The notes beneath the pieces were generated by a model that was not told the DNA's origin, did no database searches, and saw nothing but the letters and a program-made list of their open reading frames with translations. The translations under genes and the position numbers were made by a program. Shown here in pieces: positions 7,404-12,161 of a stretch of DNA of 64,000 nt (the stretch's first letter is position 1; each line of letters starts with the position of its first letter). Source of the DNA: Rhodococcus wratislaviensis (GTDB taxonomy: Bacteria; Actinomycetota; Actinomycetes; Mycobacteriales; Mycobacteriaceae); contig NZ_UAUI01000001.1 of assembly GCF_900455735.1 (NCBI RefSeq), forward strand, positions 806,001-870,000. The letters run 5' to 3'.

Positions 7404-8411
7404 GGCAGTTCCGACAACGACTAATGGCGGCAACAGACCGCATGTTCGGCCCGACCGCTGTGCATATCAGCGGCCGGGTCGAACAGGTCCTTCACCTTGA
7501 ACGAGCGAAGGATCGTCCCGGGGTGACTCGCCCCAAAGCGACTCCACGGCCATGTTGAGAGCGGTCTGCGATAAACGCCAGCGCCGCAGCCCACACCTCG
7601 TGCTGGTCGTCGAGCAGCACGATCCTCAACGCTGATCCTTGGGTAGTCGAACAAGAACAGGACAAGGACCATCTTGATCTTAAACCGTCATAGATGCGCA
7701 TTGACGCAACTAAGTACGGCCGCTAACACATACGCGACTGCGCGACAGACGCTTTGGAATTTCGCTGTCGAGCGATCGGACCGCGCTCCGGGGTGTCACC
7801 GCGCCGCGACGGGGGAACGACGAGCGGGAGCCTTGACCATCACCACCACTTCCTTCACGCTTGATGGTCGTCCTCATGCGGACGGTCACTCACCTCCCAC
7901 GCGTGGCGTTAGATTCGGTTGCCGCAACGTGAGCCGGGGGATCTGCAGCCAACGCGTGCCCCGGCATCCGATGTGGGTCAGCACTTCATGCGTCCGAGGC
8001 TACGGCGGGAAGCAGGACGATGAGGCCCGGCGTGACGGTTCTCGGTGACGCTCGCCGACGGTGCCGTTTTCGGGGAACAGCTGCTCACCTGACCGTTCGA
8101 TGGACCCCAGGTCGGCTTCGAACCGATTGCCACCGCTGCGGCTCAGAACCAACACGTACCCACCGCTGACACCGCCTCCAGGTGAGATGTCCTGCGCGGC
8201 AAACCAACCCCCAACTGGCCCACCCGGGCGCAGGGGTACACCGTTCCTTGGCCGCCCTGAAGAGCCCGGCCGGGTCTACCGTCGTTCGGTCGTTCTACCG
8301 AGCACCATCCGTTGCAGCTGCTTGACAGAAACCATGTAGAGACACCTGTCGAGAGGTTCACCGCCGGGGGTATCCTGTTAATTTTCCGCCACCACGTCCA
8401 GGAGGCGCTGC
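7404..8411. other. 1-kb gap without a recognisable gene
   Basis: Short frames on both strands show no family I can name. A minus-strand piece near 7500-7640 (LRIVLLDDQHEVWAAALAF) faintly resembles the start of a receiver domain, but it is too short and broken to call. The gap separates the M24/PLP cluster from the GNAT-AAA+ gene and looks like decayed sequence. Confidence 0.4.
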
Positions 8412-9674
8412 ATGGACGCCTGGAGTATCCGGGACTTCGCACCCGAAGACCTCGACGCAGTCGTCCGCATGGACACCGACTCCAGTACGACAGACCAACC
8501 GCCACTGTTCGGACTGTCGGATGTCGTGTCGAGCCTGTCGAACCACCACCCCGCCGTCGTCGCACTGGTCGACGGACACATCGTCGGGACCGCGATCAGC
8601 CGAGTCGACGAGGACCGTGCATGGATCGTGCGCATCTCCCTCCACCCCGACTGGCGCCACCGCGGACTCGGCAGCGCCCTGCTCTCGCAACTCGAGCACC
8701 GCCTCCTCGCCAAAGGAGTCCGGCGCCTGTCCGCTCTCCTCCCGGACGGCGAGACCGGCGCGGCCGCCCTGACCAACTCCGGCTTCCGAGCGCGCAGCGG
8801 CGTCACCTACTACGAAAAGACCGAAACCGTGTCACCACAGACGGCGGCCGTCCTCACCCGCCTCGGCGGCGGAGTCCCACCGGCCGGACTGTGGAAACAG
8901 GTAGCGGGCATGACCGACGAGAAATCCCTCATCGAACGCCGCATCGTTCTGCCACTGTCGCGACCCGCGCTCGCCGCCGACCACGGCGTGACAGCGCCGC
9001 GAGCCGTGGTGCTCTTCGGTCCGCCGGGGACGGGCAAGACGACCTTCGCCCGAGCCATCGCCAGCCGCCTCGGCTGGCCCTTCGTCGAACTGTTCCCCTC
9101 CCGGCTCGCGACGAACGGAAACGGACTCGCCGCCGGCATCGGTGACGCATTCGCCTCGCTCGACGAACTCCAGCACGTCGTCGTCTTCATCGATGAGGTC
9201 GAGGAAGTCGCCTCCCGGCGACACCCCGGCTCACCATCCGTCGGCGTGGTCAACGAATTGCTCAAATCGATCGTCACCTTCCGAGAGCGCGGCGGCCGAC
9301 TCCTGGTATGCGCCACCAACTCCGTTCGAGCACTCGACGAGGCGTTCCTGCGACACGGCCGGTTCGACTACGTATTACCCATCGGCGCACCCGACGCAGA
9401 CGCCCGGCACGCCCTGTGGGAGCGCTACCTCGGCAACGAGGACGTCGACGTATCCGCACTCGTCGCCGCCACCGACGGCTACACGCCCGCCGACGTCGCC
9501 CACGCGGCACGGACCGTCGCGCAAGCGACCTTCGAGTGCAGTGTCGACTCCGGCGGCCGCTGCCACGCCAGCACCCAGGACTACCTCGACGTCATCAGCA
9601 CCGTCCGCCCCACCCTCACCCCCGACATGATGGGCGAATTCACCGAAGACATCGACAACCACGCCCGCACCTGA
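8412..9674 (+). CDS. GNAT acetyltransferase-AAA+ ATPase fusion protein
   Basis: 420-residue two-domain protein. Residues 1 to about 137 form a GNAT N-acetyltransferase domain; WRHRGLGSALLSQLE (81-95) carries the acetyl-CoA pyrophosphate loop. Residues about 170-400 form a classic AAA+ module of the FtsH/CDC48 type: Walker A GPPGTGKT (203-210), Walker B VVVFIDEVEEV (about 250-260), sensor-1 LLVCATNS (about 298-305), an RHGRFD arginine-finger region and a C-terminal lid, ADVAHAART. The ATG follows CAGGAGGCGCTGC. No membrane segment and no obvious operon partner. A plausible role is ATP-driven remodelling of a target that is acetylated or sensed through acetyl-CoA, but the function is unknown. 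Confidence 0.85.
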   Translation: MDAWSIRDFAPEDLDAVVRMDTDSSTTDQPPLFGLSDVVSSLSNHHPAVVALVDGHIVGTAISRVDEDRAWIVRISLHPDWRHRGLGSALLSQLEHRLLAKGVRRLSALLPDGETGAAALTNSGFRARSGVTYYEKTETVSPQTAAVLTRLGGGVPPAGLWKQVAGMTDEKSLIERRIVLPLSRPALAADHGVTAPRAVVLFGPPGTGKTTFARAIASRLGWPFVELFPSRLATNGNGLAAGIGDAFASLDELQHVVVFIDEVEEVASRRHPGSPSVGVVNELLKSIVTFRERGGRLLVCATNSVRALDEAFLRHGRFDYVLPIGAPDADARHALWERYLGNEDVDVSALVAATDGYTPADVAHAARTVAQATFECSVDSGGRCHASTQDYLDVISTVRPTLTPDMMGEFTEDIDNHART

Positions 9675-10986: not shown

Positions 10987-11715
10987 TCAGCGACTTCCGT
11001 TTTGGTAGTGAGGGTTCCAGCGCAACACCCGGGCCTCGATGAACCGGGTGATCTGGTCCGCGAGCAGACCCGCGATCGCGTACAGAAGAATGGCGAGGAC
11101 GATGCGGTCGTTGCGCAGCATGTCGCGGCCGTTCTGGGCGAGGAAGCCGATGCCCTCGCTGGTGGCGATGGTCTCGGCGATCACCAGGGTCAGCCACGCG
11201 ACGCCGAGGGCGTATCGGATGCCGGTGAGGATCATCGGCATCGCGCCGGGGACGATGATGTCGCGGATCCGGGCGCCGCGGCCGAGTCCGTATGACTCGC
11301 CCAGCTGGATCAGTCTGGGATCCACGGTACGGATACCCGCGACGGTGTTGAGGTAGACGGGGAAGATCACGCCGAGCATGACGGGGACGATCTTCGGCAG
11401 TTCCCCGATGCCGAACGCGGCGATCAGCAGCGGCACCAGCGCGAGGTGTGGCAGCGCCCGCAGCATCCGCAGGGTGCGGTCGACGAGCCCCTCCGCGATC
11501 TTCGAGAGCCCGACGAGGAAGCCGAGCAGCAGGCCGAGGGAGGCGCCGAGGGTGAACCCGATCAGGATCCAGCGCACACTCACCAGAAGATGCCACTGCA
11601 GTTCGCCCGACGTCCACAGCTGATCCGCGGTGGCGAGCACCGTGCTGGGCGGGGGAAGGATCGACGGGGATATCGCGCCGGTCGACGACGCCCACTGCCA
11701 GCCGAGGATCAGCAC
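10987..11715 (-). pseudogene. ABC transporter permease (SsuC/TauC type), 5' truncated
   Basis: Inner-membrane permease of the nitrate/sulfonate/taurine ABC family, about 243 residues of native-looking sequence from [13 protein letters not shown] to the stop. The EAA-like loop region reads SYGLGRGARIRDIIVPGAMPMILTGIRYALG, with several hydrophobic helices. The native reading ends at about 11715, where a fragment of an ATPase gene begins on the opposite strand. The normal N-terminal cytoplasmic segment and first helix start are missing, so an upstream extension would encode unrelated sequence. A GTG at 11715 might still initiate a shortened product, but the partner genes are also broken. Confidence 0.75.
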
Positions 11716-11720
11716 TCGGC

Positions 11721-12161
11721 ACCCGAAACCAGCGCGACAAGGCGGTCGAGTTGCTCCACGCGGTCGGCCTCGCCGGCAGGGAGACGGACTGGCCCTCCGA
11801 ATTGTCCGGCGGGCAGCGCCAACGCGTCGCCCTGGCCCGCGCACTGCTACATCAGCCCGACGTACTGCTGCTCGACGAGCCCTTCGGCGCCCTCGACGCC
11901 ATCACCCGGGTCGCGATGCAGCAGTTGCTCGAGCGGGTGCTGGCCGACCGGCCCCGCACCGTTCTTCTCGTCACCCACGACGTCGAGGAAGCGCTCGTCC
12001 TCTCCGACCGCGTCCTGCTGCTCACCGAGCAGGGCATCACCCGTGACCTGCCGATCCCGCAGGCGCGGCCACGATCACGCGGTGACAGCCGGCTCGCGGC
12101 CTGAAAGAAGGAGTTGCTCGACGGACTCCTGCACGCCGACACCACGCTCACCTTCCCCTGA
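11721..12161 (+). pseudogene. ABC transporter ATPase (SsuB/TauB type), 3' part with premature stop
   Basis: C-terminal half of an ATP-binding cassette. It enters abruptly with [19 protein letters not shown], then the ABC signature [15 protein letters not shown], Walker [13 protein letters not shown], and the H-loop [11 protein letters not shown]. Walker A and the first half are absent. A TGA at 12102-12104 interrupts the frame; the same frame resumes as KKELLDGLLHADTTLTFP to a stop at 12159-12161, which looks like the original C-terminus. It abuts the permease fragment head to head, which is not the usual co-directional operon order. Confidence 0.75.

Follow-up and report, generated by a model that had tools for sequence, protein, structure and literature searches.

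We analysed a window of 64,000 nucleotides from Rhodococcus wratislaviensis (contig NZ_UAUI01000001.1, positions 806,001 to 870,000), in which a single open frame of 420 codons at 8412-9674 on the forward strand, starting with ATG and ending with TGA, joins a GNAT acetyltransferase fold to an AAA ATPase module. An earlier sequence-only reading had proposed this gene as an intact 420-residue fusion of GNAT with an FtsH/CDC48-type AAA part, and Pfam supports both halves: GNAT (PF00583) matches residues 44-120 (E 9.4e-13, 48.9 bits against a cut-off of 20.7), and AAA (PF00004) matches residues 199-324 (E 2.5e-23, 83.4 bits against 21.2). An in-frame stop at 8379 lies upstream of the ATG. The features of the gene are as follows.

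8412-9674, + strand: GNAT-AAA fusion gene, 420 residues, a single-gene unit (open frame and Pfam)
8400-8405, + strand: ribosome-binding site AGGAGG, 6-base spacer to the ATG (sequence)
8412-8816, + strand: GNAT domain, residues 1-135 (PF00583, YpeA profile match, AlphaFold2 model)
8655-8672, + strand: acetyl-CoA (motif A) loop RHRGLG, residues 82-87 (motif)
8817-8900, + strand: linker, residues 136-163, with G152 invariant and W161 near-invariant (alignment)
8901-9425, + strand: AAA large subdomain, residues 164-338 (PF00004 over 199-324; FIGL-1 fold match)
9018-9041, + strand: Walker A GPPGTGKT, residues 203-210 (motif; K209 in 71/71)
9102-9146, + strand: pore loop 1 region, residues 231-245, lacking aromatic-X-Gly (VAT alignment)
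9186-9197, + strand: Walker B FIDE, residues 259-262 (motif; D261 and E262 in 71/71)
9312-9320, + strand: sensor 1 ATN, residues 301-303 (motif; N303 in 71/71)
9351-9362, + strand: arginine fingers R314 and R317 (RHGRFD, residues 314-319; both in 71/71)
9426-9626, + strand: AAA lid, residues 339-405 (PF17862 weak, E 0.0023, under the cut-off; VAT alignment)
9621-9671, + strand: C-terminal helix and invariant penultimate Arg, R419 (chain ends, model)

The fusion is real and not a frameshift product, because intact full-length copies recur in the genus and across loci. The window's own genome and 60 relatives hold seven further places that align over residues 1-420 at 82-85% and are free of internal stops, and two more with near whole-chain coverage at 49 and 53%; the protein on plasmid pROB01 of Rhodococcus opacus B4 (WP_007297117.1) has the same full-length architecture and is 84.3% identical. 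Of the best 80 loci listed from genome contigs, 66 match across both halves, a lower bound for the genome contigs as a whole. We aligned the window protein with 70 loci (46 of the 66 genome-contig fusion loci, 5 from the set of the own genome and 60 relatives, 4 from plasmids and 15 from the phylum sample), and in this alignment of 71 the distances in the GNAT half track those in the AAA half (Mantel rho 0.64, against at most 0.18 in 500 permutations; n=68, rows L096, L097 and L103 omitted). A frameshift or chimaeric origin was rejected on the full-length matches without internal stops and on this co-evolution. Mean column entropy is 0.99 bits in the AAA core versus 1.93 in the GNAT half, and among nine copies from the window's genus the median ratio of nonsynonymous to synonymous substitution (dN/dS) is 0.15 for GNAT and 0.07 for AAA. 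The two halves are thus co-inherited, at an unequal pace.

The central observation is that six ATPase residues (K209, D261, E262, N303, R314 and R317) are invariant in all 71 aligned proteins, of which eight have a broken acetyl-CoA loop with the GNAT core mostly kept, a combination that is new. The consensus of this loop in GNAT proteins is R/Q-x-x-G-x-G/A, which RHRGLG of the window copy fits. Scored across the alignment as R/Q/H/K-x-x-G-x-G/A, the motif is intact in 59 of the 71 proteins; four others show a single departure, and eight depart at two or three of the three positions, always at Gly85. These eight rows come from Tsukamurella (L037, L091), Propionibacteriaceae (L088), Brevibacterium (L089, L090), Rubrobacter (L097) and Acidimicrobiia (L103), together with L132, and those outside Tsukamurella, Brevibacterium and Propionibacteriaceae are mostly metagenome bins. 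The scored motif appears nowhere in residues 66-105 of the eight rows, which amount to two changes on the tree (five changes for all 12 loop-departing rows). Counting rows with a letter, the loop-loss proteins keep W81 in 0/8, R82 in 0/5, G85 in 0/8 and G87 in 0/7; V50, E95, G102 and G124 are retained in 8/8, D13 in 6/6, E135 in 7/8 and W71 in 6/8. All eight keep every one of the six ATPase residues, and the model of the loop-less Brevibacterium protein has a mean predicted local distance difference test score (pLDDT) of 91.9, with 72 in the loop block itself. Because the loop was lost while most of the GNAT core was kept, the fold seems to serve without a cofactor site in some lineages. An acetyl-CoA response therefore cannot be the universal role, and the earlier suggestion of an acetyl-CoA-responsive unfoldase holds in part: the loop is intact in the window copy, which probably still binds acetyl-CoA.

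Residues 141-420 of the window-protein model (mean pLDDT 91.2, predicted template modelling score (pTM) 0.70) match the fold of FIGL-1 (Z 26.6, root-mean-square deviation 2.7, 273 residues); FIGL-1, spastin, Vps4 and p97 fall at Z 24-27 with many ties (p97, 9ox9, at 26.4). The best PDB sequence match is VAT, an archaeal VCP-like ATPase (9.4e-60 summed over two AAA domains). The fusion shares the AAA core and its R-x-G-R-F-D arginine fingers with CDC48/p97/VAT and FtsH/PAN; unlike them, it has one AAA domain, a GNAT head, no protease and no aromatic pore motif. The family models score under their cut-offs: FtsH 98.7 bits against 600, the two-AAA CDC48/Cpa model 102.9 against 802.65 with a single AAA stretch found, PAN 110.2 against 500, and the bacterial proteasome ATPase 75 against 504.75. 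No HExxH zinc-protease motif occurs in the 420-residue chain, in agreement with the earlier view that a protease domain is lacking, and with a best 19-residue hydropathy of 1.27 the chain also lacks the membrane anchor of FtsH. Cpa, the Cdc48-like protein of actinobacteria, has two AAA domains. It is a AAA relative and a proteasome interactor, and GNAT was not found in the accessible text of PMC6017811. Membership in the Vps4/spastin clade was also rejected: an extra Arg directly before the arginine finger marks the meiotic clade of Vps4, spastin, katanin and fidgetin (PMC5039278, in the part available), whereas the fusion, alike in fold to FIGL-1, spastin and Vps4, reads RHGRFD without the doubled arginine.

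Two parts of the AAA half depart from the classical pattern. The lid reads TPAD where classical AAA proteins show G-A-D (GAD in VAT), with P359, A360 and D361 present in 67, 64 and 69 of the 71 proteins, respectively. Pore loop 1 is without the aromatic-X-Gly motif: the window copy reads RLATNGNGL, its NGNG aligns with WVG of VAT, and an aromatic residue is found in 4 of 71. The AAA+ module, described earlier as complete, is therefore complete in its ATPase residues and not in its pore loop. At the other end of the chain, the penultimate residue is Arg in all 75 chains with a visible end, namely 70/70 aligned proteins (L103 runs off its contig and is omitted) and 5/5 deltaproteobacterial cousins. 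The window protein ends HART, unlike the hydrophobic-Tyr-X of proteasome-activating ATPases. This Arg is predicted to make a strand bridge in the models of both the window and the Brevibacterium proteins, and a terminus conserved so exactly hints at a latch or a site of docking. Both the pore loop and the Arg-X end are new observations.

For the GNAT half, a profile of 33 family proteins matches E. coli YpeA at 1.9e-17, the closest GNAT with a solved structure, as well as 58 other distinct PDB sequences at E of 0.001 or below; this half thus matches the GNAT family in profile searches. YpeA is a stand-alone GNAT and has Ser where the fusion family has W71. The fold-search list was filled by AAA matches and is hence uninformative on this half. 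In the AlphaFold2 model, pLDDT is 81-96 for residues 1-130 and 60 for residues 131-140. The last two strands of a full GNAT sheet are expected at residues 123-141, where the model assigns no strands and pLDDT falls to 60.

A different head is found in the four cousins from Thermodesulfobacteriota whose N-termini were scanned (L104, L106, L108, L109), which are 359-390 residues long and match the fusion only from about residue 131 or later. Their N-termini match positions 127-161 of the 163 of DUF4032 (E 7.9e-6 to 8.2e-4, above the cut-off in one of four), and no GNAT family is matched at E of 0.01 or below. Judging by these matches, the AAA module in these four appears to carry a DUF4032 fragment in place of GNAT, a swap expected of an engine with exchangeable heads. 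This alternative head is likewise new, and no paper naming DUF4032 was found in the open-licence PubMed Central literature. In one genome, a second open reading frame that matches the DUF4032-like stretch is found some 9 kb away from the gene for the DUF4032-AAA protein (G453:C187:129161-129349).

Sampling 396 genomes of the phylum gave 29 carriers of the fusion (E of 1e-60 or below), spread over 26 of 237 genera, which does not fit the earlier remark that the two activities are rarely joined. On plasmids, matches H1-H23 come from Rhodococcus, Kitasatospora, Saccharopolyspora, Embleya, Streptomyces, Arthrobacter/Paenarthrobacter and Tsukamurella; the nearest is 97.4% identical (Rhodococcus sp. 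JS3073), and H18 spans residues 86-420 only, in three pieces. A Rhizobium etli plasmid match over 81% of the query proved to be an ordinary 610-residue FtsH-like frame and was dropped. The AAA tree mixes taxa, with Streptomyces in several places and Tsukamurella grouped with Brevibacterium and a Propionibacteriaceae genome, a pattern that points to transfer. The window's own genome has one fusion copy, and the remaining AAA relatives in it are longer, at 495 to 921 codons; a 736-residue frame at G000:C15 is probably Cpa, by length and match. A contig binned as Bifidobacterium breve (L051) has a copy grouping with those from the window's taxonomic family, probably a binning error. Another genome has, some 1.7 kb downstream of its full copy, a remnant that matches residues 6-51 at 67% identity (G007:C1:3339349-3339486).

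The gene is a lone unit in the window, and its neighbours are metabolic and transport genes unrelated to it: upstream, 1 kb separates it from the end of a gene for a pyridoxal phosphate enzyme, and downstream a gene for a GntR-type regulator runs towards it. For the partner search, an all-against-all comparison covered the open reading frames at 75 loci, with the target assigned in 73 (not L087 and L103); for family scans, 272 neighbouring frames at 72 loci were reduced to 219 by removing 14 near-duplicate loci, and 144 of these were scanned. The frames were picked by a home-made codon-position rule rather than a gene caller. No constant partner gene emerged among the compared loci, a new result that agrees with the earlier view of a gene without an operon partner. 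No Pfam family occurs more than five times among the 144 scanned frames, and no gene is common by product name to the seven annotated plasmid neighbourhoods. Neighbour families seen in at least four genera, among those examined and with self-overlapping frames excluded, are mostly short-chain dehydrogenases, response regulators, kinases and transporters. DUF5994 also occurs near the gene in Rhodococcus, Streptomyces and Kitasatospora, though its distance varies, and the copy on pDK2 is flanked by genes of stress type (Hsp20, Dyp peroxidase, encapsulin).

We tentatively favour, at a little short of an even chance, a reading in which the fusion is a stand-alone single-ring AAA protein-remodelling ATPase with a client-facing GNAT-fold head. 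The AAA half would be the engine, a single-ring remodeller of the chaperone or segregase kind, independent of any protease or operon partner, and the N-terminal GNAT-fold domain would sit over the ring and face the client. Where the loop is present, as in the window copy and most relatives, the head would probably acetylate the client or hold it in an acetyl-CoA-dependent manner; in the two lineages where the loop is gone, it may be a plain receptor. Computation shows both domains, the invariant ATPase residues, the joint inheritance of the halves, the selective loss of the loop and the lack of a constant partner among the compared loci; from these we infer ring assembly, remodelling activity, acetylation and the client. 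We prefer a remodeller with an exchangeable head because the ATPase residues are invariant, the AAA half is less variable, the halves are co-inherited, the loop is selectively lost while a loop-less member is still modelled with high pLDDT, a DUF4032 fragment appears in place of GNAT in the four cousins, the AAA part folds like FIGL-1, spastin, Vps4 and p97, and no constant neighbour emerged. If active, such a protein would be motor and modifying enzyme for proteins at once, in a single chain with neither protease nor operon partner, and would add a client-remodelling system in actinobacteria beside Mpa, Cpa, FtsH and Clp. Natural relatives with and without the acetyl-CoA loop allow the role of the GNAT head to be asked directly.

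Several points weigh against the remodeller with a client-facing head. Purifying selection on the GNAT half (dN/dS about 0.15) and a loop intact in 59 of 71 proteins speak for a role of catalysis in most lineages, and a pure-receptor view fails to explain them. Other conserved positions also slip in the loop-loss rows (L151 kept in 3/8, R97 in 5/8), and the pTM of the model together with its weak stretch at residues 131-140 leaves the predicted placement of the head over the ring unsettled. The missing aromatic-X-Gly of pore loop 1 makes classical threading doubtful; it argues against simple threading and not against remodelling, because D1 of eukaryotic Cdc48 likewise lacks the aromatic pore motif, and yeast does not survive its restoration (PMC5511170, in the part available).

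The chief rival is a motor-coupled acetyltransferase following the logic of the RNA cytidine acetyltransferase TmcA/NAT10, in which ATP hydrolysis by the ring would present a buried protein or RNA site to GNAT, with acetylation as the output; we consider it unlikely, though deserving of serious weight. TmcA/NAT10 is likewise an ATPase motor and a GNAT in one chain, and the TmcA helicase domain, driven by ATP hydrolysis, delivers the site to the acetyltransferase domain (both from the accessible part of PMC4234376). This precedent, the loop intact in 59 of 71 proteins and purifying selection on both halves speak for such an enzyme. The eight loop-less proteins, with their six ATPase residues, imply that acetylation is not a universal output, and the absence of the last two GNAT strands from the model argues against a full enzyme. 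The architectures also differ: the TmcA/NAT10 motor is helicase_RecD, placed ahead of GNAT_acetyltr_2, whereas the fusion has an AAA module with GNAT first, and neither of those families is among the best 25 of its 37 Pfam matches, which are led by AAA and Acetyltransf_1. A rather unlikely elaboration is a ring-type counterpart of TmcA for proteins, in which the AAA ring would spend ATP on opening or holding a client so that a buried site reaches the GNAT heads for acetylation, unfoldase and acetyltransferase being merged; the chemistry would have been lost in two lineages, where the GNAT fold would be a pure client receptor. If true, the family would document how an enzyme becomes an adaptor while keeping its motor intact.

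In the available parts of the sources, GNAT-EVE operons often include a separate AAA+ gene (PMC7641849) and a GNAT is coupled with an ABC ATPase (PMC7824862); the accessible portions of four papers matching GNAT and AAA terms (PMC7159879, PMC7641849, PMC7824862, PMC2701414) do not describe the present fusion. The NCBI product name is already "bifunctional GNAT family N-acetyltransferase/ATP-binding protein", a name without a function. No description of the fusion was found in the open-licence PubMed Central literature, with most subscription papers outside the search, and within that scope the family has no characterised member, as had been supposed.

The other explanations fare less well. An ATPase with a non-catalytic GNAT fold that takes acetyl-CoA as a metabolic cue and thereby gates the ring would suit the intact loop of the window copy and a monocistronic gene among unrelated metabolic and transport genes, but the loop-less relatives cannot sense acetyl-CoA in this way, and we regard it as improbable. 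Still less probable is a role like that of Mpa or Cpa, as a regulatory ring that supplies the bacterial 20S proteasome. The proteasome beta subunit was detected in 24 of 29 carrier genomes versus 157 of 396 overall (153 over the cut-off; Fisher p 1.3e-6, ignoring kinship), but this is a correlation with five carriers showing none (G327, G084, G274, G309, G366), the C-terminus is Arg-X rather than hydrophobic-Tyr-X, and cousins occur in Thermodesulfobacteriota, where the proteasome was not sought. As a separate observation, the window's own contig carries, about 165 kb from the fusion gene, both a proteasome beta subunit gene (G000:C25:978840-979517) and a possible proteasomal ATPase gene of the AAA type (G000:C25:983170-983811). 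Very improbable, finally, is an anti-phage defence ATPase, the sequence-only reading having raised a defence-like one: the distribution is patchy and partly plasmid-borne and the AAA part has weak matches to the defence models IetA and TRIP13, but the NCBIfam equivalog IteA, which we take to be PADLOC's IetA, reaches 72.2 bits against a cut-off of 510, five PADLOC families appear once each among the 144 neighbouring frames (neighbours only, with no background set), and in none of 130 matched phage records does a match reach 80% coverage of the protein, which also leaves a phage origin without support. Viral contigs give at least eight weak matches to AAA only.

Upstream of the gene, a SigF/SigB-type promoter was rejected, as 0 of 72 upstream regions match the consensus. 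A near-perfect palindrome of about 40 bases (GTGAGTACTT..TTAACCGC and complement) lies just upstream of three copies from the window's genus (L002, L003, which is the same as L040, and L005) and is a possible operator; the window has no match to one arm at up to three mismatches. Elsewhere in the window, the start of an ABC permease gene (10987-11844, - strand, Pfam) is overlapped on the opposite strand by what appears by eye to be the C-terminal half of an ABC ATPase (11751-12104, + strand), and the pair looks like a rearranged transporter locus.
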